This document shows, one piece after another, positions 52,570 to 64,000 of a stretch of DNA of 64,000 nt. A program made the position numbers and the translations under genes. Location: positions 186,001-250,000 of the forward strand of contig JAEUWI010000001.1 of the NCBI GenBank assembly GCA_016791475.1. Reading direction: 5' to 3'. The DNA comes from Candidatus Hydrogenedentota bacterium (lineage in GTDB: Bacteria > Hydrogenedentota > Hydrogenedentia > Hydrogenedentales > JAEUWI01). The notes beneath the pieces are model-generated. The model had not been told where the DNA came from. It saw only the letters and a list, made by a program, of their open reading frames with translations, and ran no database searches. Each line of letters opens with the position of its first letter. Within the stretch, counting starts at the first letter, position 1.

Positions 52570-52718
52570 ACTCATCCCGGGCGCAATTGCGAGCGCCGGG
52601 AAGGTGATGGGGAATGATTGTCTTGGAAGTCCCCGCGTAATCCGGGTGGTAGCAGTCCGTATACAGTTTATGACTCAATGGGCCAATTTCGCTCGTGGCT
52701 GGCGAGAAGGAGATGGTT

Positions 52719-54194
52719 ATGCAGTGTGTGCAGTGGATTTCAAAAATCCTCCCGGCGGGGGTATTGTCCGCCGCCCTCTTGTGTGCGGCGCCATTGCCCG
52801 CCGAAGGGCCCGGCAAAACCGAAGTCGTCGCCGCCATGAAAAAATCAACGGACTACATGATGGACAAAGTCTCCAATCGTGGTGGCTTCGTCAGCATGTA
52901 CACGGAGGATCTCTCTCGGCAGTGGGGGGAGGTGCCCGCGCGACGCTCCATGATCTGGGTGCAGGATCCCGGCACCGTCACCGTGGCCAAAATGCTGCTC
53001 GAAGTCCACGAGGCCACCGGCGAGGAAGTTTTCCTGAACGCCGCGCGCCAATGCGCGGATGCGCTGATCTGGGGCCAGCTTCCCTGCGGTGGCTGGAATT
53101 ACTTTATCGATTTTGAGCCGGAGGGCACCGCGAAATGGTATGAAGAAATCGGCGCCCATGCCTGGGGCTGGGACGAGTTCTACCATTTTCACGGTAACGC
53201 CACCTACGACGATCTCACGACGGCCACCGCGGCGGATTTTCTGCTGGATCTGTACACCCTCACCATGGACCCGGCCTACCGCGATGCGGTGATGAAGGTC
53301 ATCGACGGTATGCTGGCTTCCCAGTATCCGGTGGGCGGCTGGCCCCAGCGATACCCGGTTCACGCCCTGCCCGATGGCGCGGGGCACGTGGAGGACTACT
53401 CCGCCTACCTCACCTTCAATGACGACGTGATCCTGGGCAACATCAAGTTCATGCTGAAGGCCCACCGCCTGCTGGGGCTGCGCGAATGCCGCGTCTCCGC
53501 CGAGCGCGGCATGCAGTTCTATCTCGTTTCCCAATTGGGTACCCCCCAGGCCGGCTGGGCCCAGCAATACACCCTCGACATCCAGCCGGGCGCCGCACGG
53601 GAGTACGAGCCACGATGCGTTGCGCCCAGCCAGACCGTGCAGAATATCTATGACCTGATGCGTTTTTACAAGGTCACGGGCGACCGGCGCTACCTGCGCG
53701 GCATTCCCGACGCCCTCGACTGGCTCGATCGGGAACGGCTGCCGGAGGGTCACGCCACCGCGGGCCAGACCCACGCTCAGTTCGTCGACATTGGCACGGG
53801 CAAGCCCCTCTACGCCCACCGTGAGGGACCGAACCGCGTGGAGGGTCGCTACTGGGTGGACTACACCCCCGGCAACTTCCCCGATCACTACGGCATGCAG
53901 ATTACCATCGACGTCGCCGAGATTCGCAAGGAATACGAACGCGTCTTTGCCCTGAGCCCCGAAGCGGCCATGAAAGAGGAAACCTGGCCGGTCAATCCGT
54001 TACCCGAGACAACCGGAGCCGAGGTCAAGAAGATTCTCGATGCGCAGGACGCGAAGAAAGGCATCTGGCTGGAGAATCTTTCCGCCGCCGATCACATCGA
54101 CTGGAAATACAGACCGCGCTTCGAGTTTCGCGGTATCAGCACCCGCACCTGGTGCAACAACATGCGGGCGCTCGCCGGCTACGTGGCGGAGTAA
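52719..54194 (+). CDS. Secreted pectate lyase, PL10-like
   Basis: 491 residues from ATG 52719, which AAGGAG precedes by six bases; earlier in-frame starts do not fit this site. A signal peptide (LPAGVLSAALLCAAPLPAEG) leads to an alpha/alpha-toroid-like domain. The stretch YPVGGWPQRYP followed by YSAYLTFNDDVILGN is the best indicator of PL10-type pectate lyase (GGWPQ-FP and TFND core). Repeated helices with YLRGIPDALDWLDRE complete the domain. Cleavage of polygalacturonate in the periplasm or outside the cell is predicted; catalytic residues were not assigned. Confidence 0.75.
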   Translation: MQCVQWISKILPAGVLSAALLCAAPLPAEGPGKTEVVAAMKKSTDYMMDKVSNRGGFVSMYTEDLSRQWGEVPARRSMIWVQDPGTVTVAKMLLEVHEATGEEVFLNAARQCADALIWGQLPCGGWNYFIDFEPEGTAKWYEEIGAHAWGWDEFYHFHGNATYDDLTTATAADFLLDLYTLTMDPAYRDAVMKVIDGMLASQYPVGGWPQRYPVHALPDGAGHVEDYSAYLTFNDDVILGNIKFMLKAHRLLGLRECRVSAERGMQFYLVSQLGTPQAGWAQQYTLDIQPGAAREYEPRCVAPSQTVQNIYDLMRFYKVTGDRRYLRGIPDALDWLDRERLPEGHATAGQTHAQFVDIGTGKPLYAHREGPNRVEGRYWVDYTPGNFPDHYGMQITIDVAEIRKEYERVFALSPEAAMKEETWPVNPLPETTGAEVKKILDAQDAKKGIWLENLSAADHIDWKYRPRFEFRGISTRTWCNNMRALAGYVAE

Positions 54195-55670: not shown

Positions 55671-57125
55671 TTACCACGGTCCAGTACCCTTGAATTCGAA
55701 GCGAAGGGGTGTCACAAACCGCGCATACGCGCCCGCCACCTGGCCCAGGTCCTCCGTCGGTTCAAAAAGCAGCAAGGCCTCCTCCGTGCCGAATATCGTG
55801 CCCGCGCTCACCGCCGTGTTCAGGTCCAGCGGTGACCCGGACGTGCCCAGAGGGTAGACCATCGGTCGCGACCAGTAGACGAAGCCCCAGCCATACTGGC
55901 CGAGATAGGTGCACGGCGCCGCCTGTGGTGTAACACCGCCAAGGTAGTTTCCGGCAAACTGGTGCTTGCGCAGCGTGGCCAGGCCAAAGCCCTTGTCCTG
56001 ATTGAAGGCCGCGATCCACCACTGGTCGCGATCAAGCACGCCCAGCCCGCCGGGCACATGCCCTTCCACCGTCGCCTGGCCCAATTCGTTTCGGTGCTCA
56101 TTGATCTTCCGCACCAGCGTGCCGCCATCGGATACGGGCCACCCATAATGGGTGAAGATCTCGGGGCTTTCCTCTTTAGTCGGATCCGGATTTTCCGGAG
56201 GGCGCCTGGAGTGGCTGACCACCACTTCTCCCATGCGGATGGCATGGGCGGAGCGGTCCTGCGTGAGCCGCATGGTTGACGAAACATGCACATGGGGATT
56301 GTGGGCGTAAAACGTGTAGGTAATCGACACTTCCACATCCGTGTAATTGTGCATCGAGCCCCAGCGGTGGTAGCGAAGCGCCAGCGGGCCCCCCTCCAGC
56401 TTCTGGTTCGGCGGCGCGGGCCAGTCATAGTCATGATCCCAGCTCTGGGGCGGGCTCCAGATATCTACGCCGAAATGGATCGGAATGTTCTGGTAGAAAA
56501 GTTCCGAGCTTTCTTCCTGCTTCGCCGGCAGGATCCGCCGGATCGCACCCGACTTCGGATCCAGCGTCATCCGATAGAACTCGTTCGAGATGGTGAGGGC
56601 GGGCGCCTCTCCCGATATCTCAAGCCCCCCCGACAGCGTCGCCGATGGCAAGTCCGTGCCTGCGGTCGCGCCATCCGGGTGTCCCCAGAAAAGCCGATAG
56701 GTAGCCGTTTGATTCGCACCGCAGTCCGCCAGAAACACGATATTAATGCTGGCCGCCGGATGGGGGGTATTGCCGTCCCGTTGTTCCACGCCCCCCGCCG
56801 TGACTTCTCCAATGACCTGATGGGGCGTCAGCGCGCCCTGGCCCGCCTCGGTCAGCCGAACTACGCGGATATGTTCCCGCCATGACGCGGTGTCATCGCC
56901 TTGCACCGTCAGCGTAAGCTCCACCGGCTCCTGGATTCGCTCCAGACCCTTGGTCTCGCGCAGCACATAGTCGTATTCGTGGGCAAAGCGCCCGGCCCAG
57001 CCGTCCAGCGCGATCAGCGTCAGTTCGGTTGGCGTTGCCGCGGCCGCCAGTGAAGCGATGCCGGTCAGGGCCAGCACAACACCGCGGGTGAACACGATTC
57101 GATACCGAAATCCTCGTACTTCCAT
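55671..57125 (-). CDS. Exported protein of unknown function
   Basis: 484 residues from ATG 57125; AAGGACGGAA precedes it. Signal-anchor-like N-terminus (IVFTRGVVLALTGIASLAAAA). The mature part looks beta-rich (FYRMTLDPKSGAIRRILPAK, LALRYHRWGSMHNYTDVEV) and resembles galactose-mutarotase-like or lyase-supersandwich folds, but this is only a fold-level impression. Several conserved His/Trp-rich segments (HYGWPVSDGG, GFVYWSRPMVYP). Adjacent Nramp-like and pectate lyase genes suggest a role in glycan use. Confidence 0.65.
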   Translation of the reverse strand: MEVRGFRYRIVFTRGVVLALTGIASLAAAATPTELTLIALDGWAGRFAHEYDYVLRETKGLERIQEPVELTLTVQGDDTASWREHIRVVRLTEAGQGALTPHQVIGEVTAGGVEQRDGNTPHPAASINIVFLADCGANQTATYRLFWGHPDGATAGTDLPSATLSGGLEISGEAPALTISNEFYRMTLDPKSGAIRRILPAKQEESSELFYQNIPIHFGVDIWSPPQSWDHDYDWPAPPNQKLEGGPLALRYHRWGSMHNYTDVEVSITYTFYAHNPHVHVSSTMRLTQDRSAHAIRMGEVVVSHSRRPPENPDPTKEESPEIFTHYGWPVSDGGTLVRKINEHRNELGQATVEGHVPGGLGVLDRDQWWIAAFNQDKGFGLATLRKHQFAGNYLGGVTPQAAPCTYLGQYGWGFVYWSRPMVYPLGTSGSPLDLNTAVSAGTIFGTEEALLLFEPTEDLGQVAGAYARFVTPLRFEFKGTGPW

Positions 57126-57461
57126 GGTTTCCGTCCTTAAGTTGCGGAGACGCTTCGCGCGTGGCGGGCTGCGGCGTGGAGCCGATGCGCTGGCCTGTTC
57201 TAACACGGCATTGCAACCTCAGTCAACGACTTTTTCGTACATAATCTGGAATTTCACCGGTTACTCATATTGGCCGCCGCGTCTCGACGTAACACTATTT
57301 TCCGACCGGGACGTCCTTTGATTGCGCATTCGCTCATGTTGTGGTTAAATATGCCGGGATTGGTGGTCGAGGGGGAATGCAGAACGCCCGCGGTCGTGCC
57401 CGCAATCGGCGTTTGTTCGGGGTAACCTGCAGGGATGATTCGACCGCCCGGAGATTGGGAA
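57126..57461. other. 336-bp gap before the NRPS gene
   Basis: Divergent control region for the exported protein (minus) and the NRPS (plus). I see no credible small gene. TTGACT on the minus strand near 57222 lacks a good -10, and TTGATT near 57317 on the plus strand lacks one too. GGAG at 57450-57453 is the NRPS ribosome-binding site. Confidence 0.5.
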
Positions 57462-60400
57462 ATGGACGTGTTTACTGGGAGCGAGGGTGTGGCCTATCAA
57501 GTGACAGGGGGGACCCCGCACCGTCTCAGGAACCCGGGCGAGGAACACGATCCCCTGACACCGGCGCAGGAGGGAATGTTCTTCCAGACCCTTGCCCACC
57601 CCCATTCCGGATGCTATGTCGAGCAGGTCGTGGGGCGCCTTCGCGAGTCGCTCGATGTGCCGAGATTCGTGGAGTGCTGGCAATCCACACTCGGACGTCA
57701 CAGCATTCTGCGAACCTGCTTTCAGCGGGACGACGCTCCCGAGCCGGGCCAGTTCGTCGAGCCCCAGGTCACGCTGCCGGTCCTGGAGGAAGATTGGCGT
57801 GCGAAATCGTCCGCGGAACAGGATTCGATCCTTTCCGACTTTCTGACCACCGATAGAGCCCGGGGCTTTGACCTTCGCGAAGCGCCGCTCATGCGCGTCG
57901 CTCTGTTCCGCGCGGGCGATGCCGACTTCTATTTCGTGTGGACGGTCCACCACCTCATCGTGGATGGACGTTCCATGAACCTGTTGCTCCAGGAGGTCTT
58001 CGGGCGCTACGGCGAGGGAGCCGCCTGGCCCGATGCGGTCGGGGCAAGCGCCGCCAACTTCGGGGCCTATGCCGCCTGGCTGAAGGAAGCGCCCACGGAC
58101 GGAGCCAGGTCCTATTGGCATCATCGTCTGGAAGGACTCTGTGAAGCCACGAGTTTGCCCCTCTCCCCGCCCGATGTGCGGGAAGCCGACCAGCGTGGCG
58201 CGGGACATCTGCGCCACGCCCTCGATCCGGAATTCACCGCGCGCCTGTCGAACTTCGCGGAGAGCAACGGCCTGACCCTCAACATCGTCCTGCTCGGCGC
58301 GTGGATGCTCCTGGCCCACCGCTACGGCGACACCGCCGACGTCGTTGTCGGCGCGACCAAGGCCATACGCCACGGCGCCGCCGCGCCCGCCGATGGAATC
58401 GGTCCCTATATCAATACCTTGCCCGTCCGTACCCGCCTGGACGAATCCACGACCGCCCTCGAATGGCTGCGCGCCCTGCGCGAGCAGTGGATTGCCCTGC
58501 GCGCCGTCGAGCACTCGCCCACGGACCTGATCCGCGCGTGCGGCGAAATTCCGGGCGATGCCCCGCTGTACAACCTGTGCTATGTTTTCGAACGGGAGAC
58601 GCTGGGGGATTCTCTGCGCGGCCTCGGCGGTGCCTGGGTGAAGCGTGACTTCACCCTGCACGAATATACGCCGGTCCCCCTCATGTTGGCGGGCTACGGC
58701 GGTCCTTCACTTCTTCTTTCCCTGGAGTACGATGTCCACCGCTTTGCCGCAACCGACATGAAGCGCATGGTGGGCCATTTAATCCAGCTTCTGAGCGCCT
58801 TCCTGGAACATCCCGAAGTTCCCGCTGTGCGCCTGGACCTGCTCCCGCCCGATGAACTGGAATTGCTGTTGAAGCGCGCCGCGCCCGAAGCCGTGCCACC
58901 GGCCGTGTGCATGACGCCCGAGCGGTTTGAGGCGGCCGTTTCCCGAAATCCCGAAGCGATTGCCCTGCGCTACAAGCACATCGCCGTCACCTACCGCGAA
59001 TTGAACACACGCGCGAACCAGCTCGCGCGCCACCTGCGGGGGTTGGGAGTCCGGGCGGAATCGCGCGTGGGGATGTGTCTGCCCCACACGCCACAGGCGA
59101 TGGTGGCGCTCCTGGGCATCCTCAAAGCGGGCGGGGCCTATGTCCCCATGGATCCGGCCTATCCCGCCGAGCGCCTCGTCTACACCCTCGAAGATTCGGG
59201 CGCCACCGTCATGATCACCGACGGAGCTACCCGGCCCTGCTTTGGCGGTGCGGATGTGAAATTTGTGATCATGGAGGGACAGCCCAGCACGCTGGACCGA
59301 TACTCGGGCGAGAATCTCGCCGTGCCCGTAGCCCCTGAAGACCTGGCTTATATCATCTACACCTCGGGCTCCACCGGGCACCCGAAGGGCGTTTGTGTGA
59401 ATCATGGCGAAGCCGCCCTTCACTTCGAGTTGATGCGCGAGGTCTACCGGATTGTCCCGGAAGACCGCACGCTCCAGTTCGCCTCCCTCAGCTTCGATGT
59501 GTCGCTGGAGCAAATATTTGCGCCCCTCTTCGCCGGGTCCATCCTCCACATCGCCGACGAAAGCATGTACATCGCATCGGACTTTTCCGCCGTGCTGCGG
59601 GAAGCGGGGAGCACCGTGCTGAACCTGCCCCCCGCCTTCTGGCAGCAGTGGACCGATGAGGGCATGGCCCAGGGCCTGGCCGATTTCGGGGCGCAGTTTC
59701 GGCTTCTAATCGTCGGGGGCGACGTCGTACTGCCCCGGACCGTGCGACAATGGCAGACCTTTCCCGAAACCGCCCACGTGGCGCTCATGAATGCCTACGG
59801 GCCCACGGAGACCGTCATCACCGCCCTGTACTACGAAGTGCCGGATCACTTTGACCCCGCCGGCGTTCGGGTTCATCTGCCCATCGGAAAACCGATCCGT
59901 GGCACGGAAACCATCGTGCTGGATCGATTCCAGAACCCGCTTCCAACCGGAGTGCCGGGGGAACTGTACATCGGCGGAAATCGGGTCGCCCGGGGCTACC
60001 ACAATCGCCCCGATCTGACCGCCCGGGTCTTCGTGGATCACCCCCTTCGTCCCGGCACGGGCGCGCGACTCTACCGGACCGGCGACCGGGTCCGCGAGCT
60101 AACCGACGGGAACTTCGAATTCCTCGGGCGCCTGGATGATCAGGTCAAGATCCGGGGCTTCCGCATTGAGCTTCGAGAAGTCGAAGCCACGTTGCTGCGC
60201 TGTCCCGGCGTGCGCGACGCCGCCGTACGCTGCCGCAACGACAGGCACGGCGAGGCCCAACTGGTCGCCTACGTCGTGCCGGAACAGGGGGCCGATCTCA
60301 ATGCGGCGGAGCTGTGCGACACGCTGCGTGTTTCTCTGCCCGAATACATGGTGCCCGCGGGTTTCGCCGTGCTTGATGCCTTTCCGGTGACCGTCAACGG

Positions 60401-63400
60401 CAAAGTGGATTACAAGGCGCTGCCCCCACTCGAGGAAAGCGCCCTCGTACCGCGCCGGGACTTCGTTCCGCCGGCGACACGCACCCAGCGCATACTGGCC
60501 GGAATCTGGCGTGAGATCCTCGACTGCCGCGACGTGGGGATCGAGGACAGCTTCTTTCACCTCGGTGGGCACTCGCTGCTCTTCACCCGGCTCCTGGTCC
60601 GCATCCGGAAGCTCTTCGGGGTGGACCTGCCGCTGCGAATGGCGATGGCGGGCCCCACCATCCAGGCCCACGCCCTGGCCATTGCGGAGGCGCAGGCCTC
60701 GGGAATGGTCACCTGGAGCGGCGGCTCCCTTCCCATCGCGGGACGCGACGCGCCCCTGCCCCTGTCCTTTGCCCAGGAGCGTCTCTGGATCGTTGACCGA
60801 ATGGATCCGGGCAATTCCACCTACAACATCCCGATCCTTTTCGAGATATGCGGTGTTGTGGAAGTGGACCGGCTGCGGCGGGCCATCGATACCGTGGTGG
60901 AACGGCACGAAGTCCTGAGAACCGTATTCGTGGAGACGGGGGGTGAACCGCAACAGGTCATTCTCCCGGAACTCCGGGTCCCTTTTCTGGTTGTGCCTTT
61001 GCCCACCGTCGACGGGGATGCGGCCTTCCTGGATGCGGCCAGGGAGCATATGGGCGCAATCGCCACGGAATCCTTTTCCCTTGAGACCGGACCGTTGCTG
61101 CGATTCACGTATTTTCCCCATCGGGAAGGGCACGCCTGCCTCGTCCTGGTCATACACCACACCATTTTTGACGGATGGTCCGTCAGCGTGTTTCTGGACG
61201 AATTGGCGGCCTGCTACTGCGCCGGGCCTTCTCAAGCGCCAACGCCCCCGCCGATACAATACGCGGACTACAGCCAATGGCAGCGGGACTCCGTGGCAAC
61301 GCCCGAGTTTAAGCAACAGTTGGCCTATTGGAAGGAGCAGCTTGCGGGTCCCCTTCCCGTGCTGGAGTTTCCCACCGATTTCACCCGCCCTCCGCGTCAA
61401 ACCTGGTGCGGCGCATCCGCACTGCGCCCCCTGGGCGAGGAGCTGACCCGGGAACTGAAGCAACTGGCCCGGGAGCGGGGAAAGATGCTCTTCACCGTTC
61501 TGGCCGCCGCGTGGAATGTTCTACTGCACCGTTATTCGGGCCAGGAAGACATCCTCATCGGTTCTGTGACCGCCGGCCGGACCCACCACGATCTGGAAGG
61601 GTTGATCGGATGTTTTGTGAACACCGTCGTGCTCCGCTCCCGGCTCACACCCGCCATGGGCTTCGACGCGTACCTGGAAGAGCTCGAGTCGGTGATTATT
61701 GCCGCGCAGGAAAATCAGGCGGTCCCCTTCGAGCAGATCGTGGCCGAGGTCCGGCACGAGCGGGATCCGAGCCGTTCCCCTCTGTTTCAGATCATGTTCG
61801 TACTGCAAAACACCCCGCGCTGCGAGGCGGAGTTCGCCGGGCTTCGCATCACGGAAGAGGCCCTGCCGAACTCGGGTGCCAAATTCGATCTCACCCTCGC
61901 CATTCAACCTGTGGACGGCGATCTGGTCCTGAATCTGGAATACAACACGGCCCTGTTCCGCGAAACAACGGCACGCCGTATACTGAATAATTTTGTGACC
62001 CTGCTGCGAGCGGTGTCCCGCCAGCCCGAGGTTGCCATCGGCCGGATCGACATGCTGGAACCTGCGGAGCGCGCCTGTGTGCTCGGCCTGTCCGGCCCTT
62101 CCGCGCCCCTCGACATGGGCGCATCGCTCGTCGGTATCTTTGAGGCCCATGCCCTTCAGAACCCGCAGGCGCCCGCCGTCGCGGACGATACGACCTCGCT
62201 GGCCTACGGCGAGCTCAACGCACGGGCGAACCAGTTGGCCCGATTATTGATCGAGCGGGGCGTGAAGCCTGGAGATCCGGTTCCTTTCTTTATCTCCCGA
62301 TGCATCCACACCGTGGTGGCCATGCTGGGCATTCTCAAAGCGGGCGGCGCCTATGTTCCCCTGGATTTGCAGGATCCGGCGGCCCGCCGAAATCGGGTTC
62401 TAAAGGTGCTGGAGCCCCGCCTGATTCTCAGTGAAACCGCCATGACCAGCCAACTGAAATCGGCGGGCCTTGAGTGTGTTGCGCTGGACGAACCCGCCGT
62501 GCTGGCTCCTTTCGATGCCGGTAACCTGGGGCTGGCGCTGCACGGTGAAGACGCCGCCTACATCATTTTCACCTCGGGCTCCACGGGCGAGCCCAAAGGG
62601 GTATGCTGCAACCACAGCGGGGTGATCAATCTCTTCAACGATCTCCAGGCCAGGCAACCCGTCGGACCAGGCGAGGCCTGTTCGGTCTGGGCCGCCTTCA
62701 GTTTCGACGCCACTGTTTACGAGACGTGGACCGGTCTCCTCGGCGGCGCGGCGCTGCACATCGTGCCCGAGCGCGTCCGCCTTGATGCATTGCAATGCCT
62801 GGACTGGATGAAAGCGCGCGAAGTCGCCTCCGCTTATTTGCCCGGCTACATGCTGCCCGCATTACGGTCGCGCCAGGGCAAGGACCCCATCCCTTTGCGC
62901 AGGCTGATGGTTGGGGTGGAGCCCCTGCCCGAGTCGCTGCTCGGCGATATCGTGGATGCGACGCCGGGCCTCGTGATGGTAAATGCCTACGGCCCCACCG
63001 AGGCCACGGTATACGTCACGCTCTATCCGATTCTCGCCGGGGCGCCACACCCCCAGAGCAATGCGCCCATCGGCGCCGCCATCCAGAACACGCACCTGTA
63101 CGTGCTCGACGCGAACATGAATCCGGTGCCCATCGGCGTGCCGGGCGAACTTTACGCCGGTGGGGCCGGGCTCGCCCGGGGATACTACCGCGATCCCGAG
63201 TTGACGGCCGCCCAGTTTGTCTCGAATCCCTTCGGAGCCGCCGATGCCGACCGGCTGTATCGCACCGGTGATCTGGTTTACCTTCGAGACGACCTACAGC
63301 TCCAATTCGTGCGCCGCATGGGCCGCTACATCAAGCTGCGGGGACTCCGGATCGAGCCCGGTGAAATCGAGAGCATTCTCCGCACCCACCCGATGGTGGA

Positions 63401-64000
63401 GGATGCCGCCGTGGTGCTGGTGGGAGACTCGCCCGAGGAACAACGACTGGTGGCCTATCTCATGACGGGAGAGCACGCGCCTCCGGCAGAAGAGGTCATC
63501 GACGCCTTCCTGAAAGATCAGTTGCCCGCCCACATGCGCCCCGCCCAATCGGTCTGCCTGCCGGCCTTTCCGAGGACGGTCCAAGGCAAGCTGGATCGCG
63601 CCGCCTTTCCCGCGCCGCCCGCACTGGTTTCCGCAGGGGATGGCTTAGCGCCGCAAAACCCCACCGAGGAAGCCGTGTTTGCCATTTGGAATCAATGCCT
63701 GAACCGTGCCGCGGGCGGGATTCACACCGATTTCTTTGCCCTCGGGGGGCACTCGCTCCTCGCCATTCAGGTGCTCAGCCGGATCAATGACCAGTTTGGA
63801 AGCGCGCTGACCCTCACCGACTTTTTCGAGAGCCCCACCGTCGCGGGCCTCGCGAAACGGCTCGCGCCCGGCGGGGAGGAGGCTACCCATGGCGCGCCGC
63901 CCCCCGGCGAAATGGAAGCTGACCAGTGGGATCCTTGCGCCGTCCCGCTCCAGACCGGCGGGAGCCTCCCGCCGCTCTTTTGTGTGCTCGGTGCGGGTGG
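57462..64000 (+). CDS. Two-module non-ribosomal peptide synthetase, 3' end outside window
   Basis: About 2180 residues of open frame with no stop. Domains in order: C (about 57540-58870; HHLIVDG at residues 163-169), A (58890-60405; YTSGSTGHPKG), PCP (Ser1038 in LGGHSLLF), C (60760-62080; HHTIFDG at 1232), A (62130-63600; FTSGSTGEPKG), PCP (Ser2098 in LGGHSLLA), then LFCVLGAGG, which looks like the start of a thioesterase. All core motifs are intact. The first C domain starts LTPAQEGMFF, a form seen in some C domains that follow an epimerised donor. Specificity residues by eye: first A D-V-E-N-I-G-A-I-T-K, second D-A-Y-Y-M-G-A-V-Y-K; neither matched a code I know. ATG 57435 is an in-frame alternative. 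Confidence 0.95.
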   Translation, partial: MDVFTGSEGVAYQVTGGTPHRLRNPGEEHDPLTPAQEGMFFQTLAHPHSGCYVEQVVGRLRESLDVPRFVECWQSTLGRHSILRTCFQRDDAPEPGQFVEPQVTLPVLEEDWRAKSSAEQDSILSDFLTTDRARGFDLREAPLMRVALFRAGDADFYFVWTVHHLIVDGRSMNLLLQEVFGRYGEGAAWPDAVGASAANFGAYAAWLKEAPTDGARSYWHHRLEGLCEATSLPLSPPDVREADQRGAGHLRHALDPEFTARLSNFAESNGLTLNIVLLGAWMLLAHRYGDTADVVVGATKAIRHGAAAPADGIGPYINTLPVRTRLDESTTALEWLRALREQWIALRAVEHSPTDLIRACGEIPGDAPLYNLCYVFERETLGDSLRGLGGAWVKRDFTLHEYTPVPLMLAGYGGPSLLLSLEYDVHRFAATDMKRMVGHLIQLLSAFLEHPEVPAVRLDLLPPDELELLLKRAAPEAVPPAVCMTPERFEAAVSRNPEAIALRYKHIAVTYRELNTRANQLARHLRGLGVRAESRVGMCLPHTPQAMVALLGILKAGGAYVPMDPAYPAERLVYTLEDSGATVMITDGATRPCFGGADVKFVIMEGQPSTLDRYSGENLAVPVAPEDLAYIIYTSGSTGHPKGVCVNHGEAALHFELMREVYRIVPEDRTLQFASLSFDVSLEQIFAPLFAGSILHIADESMYIASDFSAVLREAGSTVLNLPPAFWQQWTDEGMAQGLADFGAQFRLLIVGGDVVLPRTVRQWQTFPETAHVALMNAYGPTETVITALYYEVPDHFDPAGVRVHLPIGKPIRGTETIVLDRFQNPLPTGVPGELYIGGNRVARGYHNRPDLTARVFVDHPLRPGTGARLYRTGDRVRELTDGNFEFLGRLDDQVKIRGFRIELREVEATLLRCPGVRDAAVRCRNDRHGEAQLVAYVVPEQGADLNAAELCDTLRVSLPEYMVPAGFAVLDAFPVTVNGKVDYKALPPLEESALVPRRDFVPPATRTQRILAGIWREILDCRDVGIEDSFFHLGGHSLLFTRLLVRIRKLFGVDLPLRMAMAGPTIQAHALAIAEAQASGMVTWSGGSLPIAGRDAPLPLSFAQERLWIVDRMDPGNSTYNIPILFEICGVVEVDRLRRAIDTVVERHEVLRTVFVETGGEPQQVILPELRVPFLVVPLPTVDGDAAFLDAAREHMGAIATESFSLETGPLLRFTYFPHREGHACLVLVIHHTIFDGWSVSVFLDELAACYCAGPSQAPTPPPIQYADYSQWQRDSVATPEFKQQLAYWKEQLAGPLPVLEFPTDFTRPPRQTWCGASALRPLGEELTRELKQLARERGKMLFTVLAAAWNVLLHRYSGQEDILIGSVTAGRTHHDLEGLIGCFVNTVVLRSRLTPAMGFDAYLEELESVIIAAQENQAVPFEQIVAEVRHERDPSRSPLFQIMFVLQNTPRCEAEFAGLRITEEALPNSGAKFDLTLAIQPVDGDLVLNLEYNTALFRETTARRILNNFVTLLRAVSRQPEVAIGRIDMLEPAERACVLGLSGPSAPLDMGASLVGIFEAHALQNPQAPAVADDTTSLAYGELNARANQLARLLIERGVKPGDPVPFFISRCIHTVVAMLGILKAGGAYVPLDLQDPAARRNRVLKVLEPRLILSETAMTSQLKSAGLECVALDEPAVLAPFDAGNLGLALHGEDAAYIIFTSGSTGEPKGVCCNHSGVINLFNDLQARQPVGPGEACSVWAAFSFDATVYETWTGLLGGAALHIVPERVRLDALQCLDWMKAREVASAYLPGYMLPALRSRQGKDPIPLRRLMVGVEPLPESLLGDIVDATPGLVMVNAYGPTEATVYVTLYPILAGAPHPQSNAPIGAAIQNTHLYVLDANMNPVPIGVPGELYAGGAGLARGYYRDPELTAAQFVSNPFGAADADRLYRTGDLVYLRDDLQLQFVRRMGRYIKLRGLRIEPGEIESILRTHPMVEDAAVVLVGDSPEEQRLVAYLMTGEHAPPAEEVIDAFLKDQLPAHMRPAQSVCLPAFPRTVQGKLDRAAFPAPPALVSAGDGLAPQNPTEEAVFAIWNQCLNRAAGGIHTDFFALGGHSLLAIQVLSRINDQFGSALTLTDFFESPTVAGLAKRLAPGGEEATHGAPPPGEMEADQWDPCAVPLQTGGSLPPLFCVLGAG

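Follow-up and report, generated by a model that had tools for sequence, protein, structure and literature searches.

The locus described here raises the question of which donor a condensation domain accepts if it belongs to the epimerised-donor class but no epimerase exists. The domain heads a nonribosomal peptide synthetase (NRPS) encoded at the end of a stretch of 64,000 nucleotides (the window) from a Candidatus Hydrogenedentota bacterium, positions 186,001 to 250,000 of contig JAEUWI010000001.1 (G000:C1:186001-250000, G000 being the parent genome). The NRPS is genuine, complete and intact, and within the well-known class of type I modular synthetases it is a rather ordinary representative. 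With a probability of about 0.6, we propose that it is a self-contained one-gene enzyme with an arginine-like first adenylation (A) domain, a capping role for its first condensation (C) domain and an origin as a cassette mosaic.

The open reading frame begins at the first in-frame ATG at 57435, 57462 being the second, and is still open where the window ends (57435..63998+). In the parent contig, which comprises 296 kb of a 7.7-Mb draft assembly (529 contigs, 96.2% complete, 3.66% contamination), it continues in frame, and the break just past the window that the original prediction had named as fatal to it was not found, the stop coming only after 2472 amino acids, 2188 of them within the window. 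Within the window Pfam recognises two Condensation (match E 2.5e-178, far beyond chance), two AMP-binding, two AMP-binding_C and two PP-binding domains, and beyond it a Thioesterase with 90.3 bits in one search and 99 bits in another. With C, A, peptidyl carrier protein (PCP) and thioesterase (TE) domains the order is C1-A1-PCP1-C2-A2-PCP2-TE. The motifs are intact in the condensation domains (HHLIVDG in C1, HHTIFDG in C2), in the adenylation domains (YTSGSTGHPKG and FTSGSTGEPKG, NAYGPTE twice, YRTGD twice, NGKVD and QGKLD) and in both carriers (GGHS), while the TE carries GWSFG and a late GNH, the GxSxG and His of a release domain. The predicted two-module architecture and the terminal thioesterase, whose start had been suspected at the window edge, were thus both confirmed. 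Chosen genes at the loci were annotated with codon scoring, and the features are as follows.

57435..64000, plus strand: NRPS gene, complete with 2472 amino acids in the parent contig (G000:C1:243435-250853)
57540..58829, plus strand: C1, DCL-like condensation domain (epimerised-donor class), HHLIVDG intact
58920..60434, plus strand: A1, arginine-like adenylation domain, code DVENIGAITK
60462..60689, plus strand: PCP1, GGHS intact, opening part of the putative inserted cassette
60747..62069, plus strand: C2, condensation domain of the ordinary L-L type with intact HHTIFDG, sister to the C domain of paralogue C2a
62142..63599, plus strand: A2, adenylation domain, non-polar substrate likely, code DAYYMGAVYK, the same in C2a_A2 and L028_A3
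63657..63884, plus strand: PCP2, GGHS intact, closing part of the putative inserted cassette
60477..63884, plus strand: putative PCP-C-A-PCP cassette, residues about 1015-2150, placed by the switch in relatedness, edges within about 20 residues either way
63930..64000, plus strand: start of the thioesterase, which runs on to G000:C1:250850 and groups with the TE of single-module arginine-type enzymes (100/100)

The assembly of these parts was followed by comparison with relatives, the phylum set being one order with 68 genomes. Two single-module C-A-PCP-TE enzymes, L026 of genome G002 and L027 of G003, are 51% and 46% identical to the NRPS over C1-A1-PCP1 and possess a TE of the same clade, the A code of L026 being identical to that of A1; they differ in having one module only, preceded in L026 by an N-terminal Fer2-FAD-NAD reductase. 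C2a (G000:C2:210340-216339), an A-PCP-C-A-PCP-TE enzyme of G000 itself, is alike in the PCP1-C2-A2-PCP2 cassette and has the same A2 code, but begins with an A domain (code DFSNLGVVFK), lacks C1 and ends with a TE of another clade. In 60-residue windows, amino acid identity is 32-65% to L026 and 22-53% to C2a over residues 61-1020, 45-90% to C2a and 23-48% to L026 over residues 1021-2160, and from residue 2161 17-47% to C2a and 27-68% to L026/L027. Identity to C2a climbs from 25-36% to 56-76% across residues 991-1060 and drops from 72% to 12% across residues 2101-2170. L027 shows the reverse course, and so does L026, though with softer edges. Refinement with 25-residue windows places the first switch at about residues 1006-1045, the A1/PCP1 linker and the start of PCP1, and the second, sharper against L027 than against L026, at about residues 2140-2165 in the PCP2/TE linker.

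The trees agree with two sources, as C2 is sister to the C domain of C2a (C2a_C1, support 99) and the TE groups with those of L026 and L027 (100/100). A clade of the window TE with C2a and C2b, chosen for testing once the result of the sliding windows was known, is rejected (approximately unbiased test, p 2.65e-52) in a TE tree of 26 rows, which left out L030, L031, L032 and others without a carrier motif in their last 420 residues. Judged by its sequence, the NRPS is a mosaic in which C1-A1 and TE share their descent with L026 and L027, the single-module enzymes of the form C-A(Arg-like)-PCP-TE, and PCP1-C2-A2-PCP2 with C2a. Where residues are shared inside the cassette, their third codon positions are 31-64% identical, which argues for an old event with A2 kept by selection. 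The 82-87% amino acid identity of the A2 core to C2a had suggested that this core was converted recently, but the idea was rejected; because third positions of the shared residues, about 50% identical, are as diverged there as elsewhere, selection on the protein is the better reading of the similarity. Among the loci compared from the 68 genomes no other enzyme has the seven-domain form.

The codes DVENIGAITK (A1) and DAYYMGAVYK (A2) had been read correctly and are reproduced by alignment, except that the final K is taken not from the alignment but from the motif check, where the A10 lysine is present. That they match no known code does not hold for A1, which fits nine of ten positions of the arginine consensus (D, A/V, E, D, I/V/L, G, A, V/I, T/D, K) in PMC12283262, and eight of ten of each of the arginine codes DVEDIGAIEK and DVESIGAIEK printed in PMC5311044. 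Among the listed solved chains with a single A domain of known substrate, ApnA-A1 of the anabaenopeptin synthetase (PDB 4d4g family) is closest to A1 with 403 bits, against 312 bits for GrsA and about 332 and 313 bits for the two A domains held by full LgrA entries; with A2, ApnA-A1 reaches only 259 bits (rank 20). The arginine-type codes of ApnA also have Glu239, whereas ApnA belongs to a cyanobacterial hexapeptide line and A1 stands after a C domain of the epimerised-donor class in a two-module enzyme. Of the seven A domains that stand after a C1-type domain, five have Glu239 (DVENIGAITK twice, DTEDLGAMTK, DAEDIGTVVK and DAEDIGTVTK; the codes without it are DILQLGMVWK and DSALIAEVWK). The substrate of A1 is probably arginine, or else a basic C5 residue closely resembling it.

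For A2 the claim of an unmatched code stands in that no printed match was found in the papers searched. Its code is present in two other NRPSs of the genus, C2a_A2 of G000 and L028_A3 of a congener, and agrees at six of ten positions with DAEGMGAIIK, given in PMC2533009 for the homotyrosine/Ile/Leu position of cyanopeptolin. This fit and the tyrosines at 239 and 278 point to a substrate that is probably non-polar.

C1 scores best among solved chains with McyB (213 bits), PvdL (192), BacC (191), SrfA-C (128-133) and TycB (121), against about 56-69 bits with the L-L type domains of LgrA, TycC and 5u89, while C2 shows the opposite pattern (260 bits with 5u89, 257 with TycC). The C domains of McyB, BacC, SrfA-C and TycB stand after D-configured donors, and for PvdL an epimerisation (E)-type domain is visible in the same solved chain. 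Among the named loci, C domains that clearly score C1 above C2 come after E-like stretches in L039, L040, L042 and L048, with the exception of one place each in L040 and L042 that is preceded by an E-domain-length gap without a match; no E-like stretch is recognised before the C domain of L051, and L044, L046 and L049 are equivocal. In a tree of 69 C domains, C1 groups with L026_C1 and L027_C1 (99), and these together with L076 fall inside a 20-row set that holds E-following domains (99) and includes two long-branch rows. Supports are from the Shimodaira-Hasegawa-like approximate likelihood ratio test (SH-aLRT) only, and the tree left out stretches of up to 330 amino acids from the study's own loci and those of the order (L077 in both its halves, L034c, L038, L079_C1, L093_C1) and of up to 380 amino acids from named loci. 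Solved-chain scores, domain order and tree thus bear out the predicted resemblance to domains following epimerised donors; by sequence clade, C1 is assigned to the DCL condensation domains, those after E domains. It differs from the best-scoring solved domains in being N-terminal, in a genome without detectable epimerases. C1-type domains were found in seven proteins, those of the window, L026, L027, L029, L034b, L076 and L077.

For the working of the enzyme we infer the following. A1 would load arginine, or its close analogue, on PCP1, and A2 would charge PCP2 with another residue that is probably non-polar. C2 would join the two, and the TE would release the product by hydrolysis or cyclisation. 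C1 would most likely cap the arginine nitrogen with a small donor such as an acyl-CoA (coenzyme A), an acyl-ACP (acyl carrier protein) or a free-standing aminoacyl carrier, so that the predicted product is donor-Arg-X, or free Arg-X. The gene would have originated from a single-module C-A(Arg)-PCP-TE enzyme in which a PCP-C-A-PCP cassette akin to that of C2a took the place of the PCP.

Several observations weigh against this proposal. At position 278, the only mismatch to the arginine consensus, A1 has Asn where the consensus has Asp, and it shares E239-N278 and seven of ten positions overall with DVENAGVVTK, assigned in PMC2533009 to the 3-amino-6-hydroxy-2-piperidone (Ahp) position of the cyanopeptolin synthetase. 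The solved chain 8xjz scores 432 bits with A1, above ApnA-A1. Neither the A2 code nor look-alike prefixes were found in the literature searched, no donor gene for C1 was identified, and in a draft of 529 contigs that is 96.2% complete an epimerase may have been missed.

Among the alternatives, an A1 that loads a residue other than arginine survives best, and is unlikely though well short of negligible. The fourth A domain of OciB, that of the Ahp position, has D-V-E-N and seven of ten code letters in common with A1, and the relatives' codes DAEDIGTVTK and DAEDIGTVVK agree at eight of ten positions with the ornithine and lysine codes DGEDHGTVTK and DGEDHGTVVK, as printed. The OciB domain differs from A1 at 299, 322 and 330, no sign of Ahp chemistry is seen here, and the best fits of A1 are to the arginine consensus and ApnA-A1. 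A siderophore with N-hydroxyornithine is unlikely, because PF13434 matches in the seven family genomes are only stretches of about 88-139 residues inside larger frames, none of them a convincing ornithine N5-monooxygenase; the hydroxyornithine candidate raised by the code DMENLGLINK (6/10) was dropped on this ground.

Rather less probable is that C1 is a relic or gatekeeper and the product no more than Arg-X, either as a linear dipeptide or as the diketopiperazine formed by its cyclisation. This would account for an N-terminal C domain without an identified donor gene, and the paralogues in G000 begin directly with A. Yet C1 retains HHLIVDG and GPYINT, as L026 and L027 retain HHLLVDG, which argues that the domain is under constraint, and single-module C-A-PCP-TE enzymes without a donor would have nothing to condense. 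Such stand-alone modules are common in the phylum, given that seven of the 20 loci compared in the survey of relatives encode a full single-module C-A-PCP-TE enzyme; a C-A-PCP relative is present at 1e-100 in 23 of the 68 genomes.

The original prediction had also considered that another synthetase acts before C1. In this case the NRPS would be the terminal part of a longer line, with an upstream synthetase giving a D-configured peptide to C1 in trans, as the position of C1 among the C domains after E domains would lead one to expect. The PF00668 model also detects E domains, as L039 with four stretches, three C and one E, shows as a control. G000 possesses four PF00668 domains in all, two in the NRPS and two in a tandem pair of A-PCP-C-A-PCP-TE enzymes (G000:C2), each with its own thioesterase; all four have the C-type motif GxxxNT and none the E-type GWFT. 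By this inventory, the motif check and an E-domain query at 1e-5 no epimerase is detectable in G000, nor was an epimerase or D-aminoacyl NRPS donor found there upstream of C1. The query matches in six of the 68 genomes, with two strong matches in G046 and G047, and in none of G000, G002, G003, G031 and G039, five genomes that all bear C1-type domains. A weak match in G005 lies directly before the C1-type domain L034b, in the expected order of E then C, which speaks for a longer line. Against it, the relatives are single-module enzymes, L026 has no adjoining synthetase gene, and the reductase of L026 occupies its N-terminus, the docking site for any upstream partner. Because G000 has only four condensation-type domains and none is an epimerase, it is unlikely, unless the draft has a gap there, that an epimerising synthetase acts upstream, and the earlier suggestion is weakened; the longer line is improbable. 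The self-contained two-residue enzyme is more likely, since the genome lacks a detectable epimerase and the same type of C domain heads single-module relatives. A D-configured donor from outside the NRPSs is possible.

A mosaic produced by chimeric assembly from two different genomes or genes can be set aside almost entirely. The assembly is a draft (529 contigs, 3.66% contamination), but each junction falls in a linker between domains, within one open frame of 2472 amino acids on a 296-kb contig, and a cassette only 45-90% identical to C2a by window can hardly come from a mix-up of reads.

As a mosaic, the NRPS would represent a natural example of the conversion of a one-residue into a two-residue synthetase by replacement of a PCP with a PCP-C-A-PCP block, the joints of the block lying at the A/PCP and PCP/TE linkers. 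Such linkers are the kind of site that synthetase engineers try to use.

A wider reading is speculative and has a low probability: a lineage-specific family of arginine-loading enzymes that uses the epimerised-donor class of C domain as a stand-alone cap without an epimerase, grows by cassette capture and can be coupled to the sensing of redox state or nitric oxide. If true, G002 would combine arginine loading, a heme globin and electron supply at one locus, perhaps oxidising carrier-bound arginine.

The NRPS gene stands alone, with no adjoining tailoring genes, also in the parent contig beyond the window. Upstream on the opposite strand are a 511-amino-acid protein without a Pfam match and then an Nramp-type transporter, and downstream, also on the opposite strand, a FHA-GAF-sigma54 regulator. 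A sigma-54 promoter for the NRPS, prompted by this regulator, was discarded, as there is no near match within about 770 bases upstream; L005 has 15 sigma-54 matches against 20.1 expected by chance. The phosphopantetheinyl transferase that the original prediction had suggested looking for was located elsewhere in the genome as a Sfp/HetI-like protein of 254 amino acids (G000:C19), the sole PF01648 protein of G000, above the cut-off of that model and with 173 bits below the cut-off of 370 of the HetI model. An MbtH helper was not found in G000 (no PF03621 match); MbtH is needed by some NRPSs only and is not a defining feature. Two genes near the NRPS, at 52695-54191 and 55674-57206 of the window, encode a pectic acid lyase and a large protein that Pfam does not match, in keeping with a glycan-degrading lineage.

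Elsewhere in G000, the tandem pair of dipeptide-type synthetases occupies L007:12322-18279 and the L007/L008 border (G000:C2:204319-216339), with the first A codes DFSNLGVVFK and DFWNIGMIHK, the latter agreeing at nine of ten positions with the threonine code DFWNIGMVHK. An operon common to G000 and G002 (L109:6865-12789, G000:C7; L110:5049-10803, G002:C11) encodes a free-standing A domain, an ornithine-lipid-type carrier, a prolyl-carrier-dehydrogenase-like enzyme and an 890-amino-acid protein without an NCBIfam match. Its A domain and carrier were considered as the C1 donor and rejected, as they resemble a prolyl-carrier dehydrogenase set (PigA/RedW-like) and nothing ties the operon to the NRPS gene.

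L026 is a more surprising object than the NRPS of the window. At L026:8122-14174 (G002:C95), a Fer2-FAD-NAD reductase is fused in frame to an arginine-type C-A-PCP-TE module. A truncated globin lies upstream of the fusion, an Rrf2 regulator is encoded divergently, and no second copy of the reductase is found in G002 at 1e-55. The free-standing version, with Rrf2 divergent from a truncated globin and a Fer2-FAD-NAD reductase, is present at all six loci fetched (L103-L108, including G000:C30:62001-78000), the reductase having matches in more genomes than these; it resembles an operon for nitric-oxide or oxygen stress. The literature search found no paper that combines an NRPS, a truncated hemoglobin and a ferredoxin reductase. 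Two further proteins with C1-type domains are unusual in form. L029:8503-16071 (G002:C24) has the order A-PCP-C-C-A-PCP-TE with two condensation-type domains in tandem, the first at the position of an epimerase but with a C-type motif and the second with a degenerate HHALVDA, and L077:7287-11512 (G039:C40) is an arginine-like module with a C1-type domain spread over two overlapping frames, either an assembly frameshift or a broken gene.

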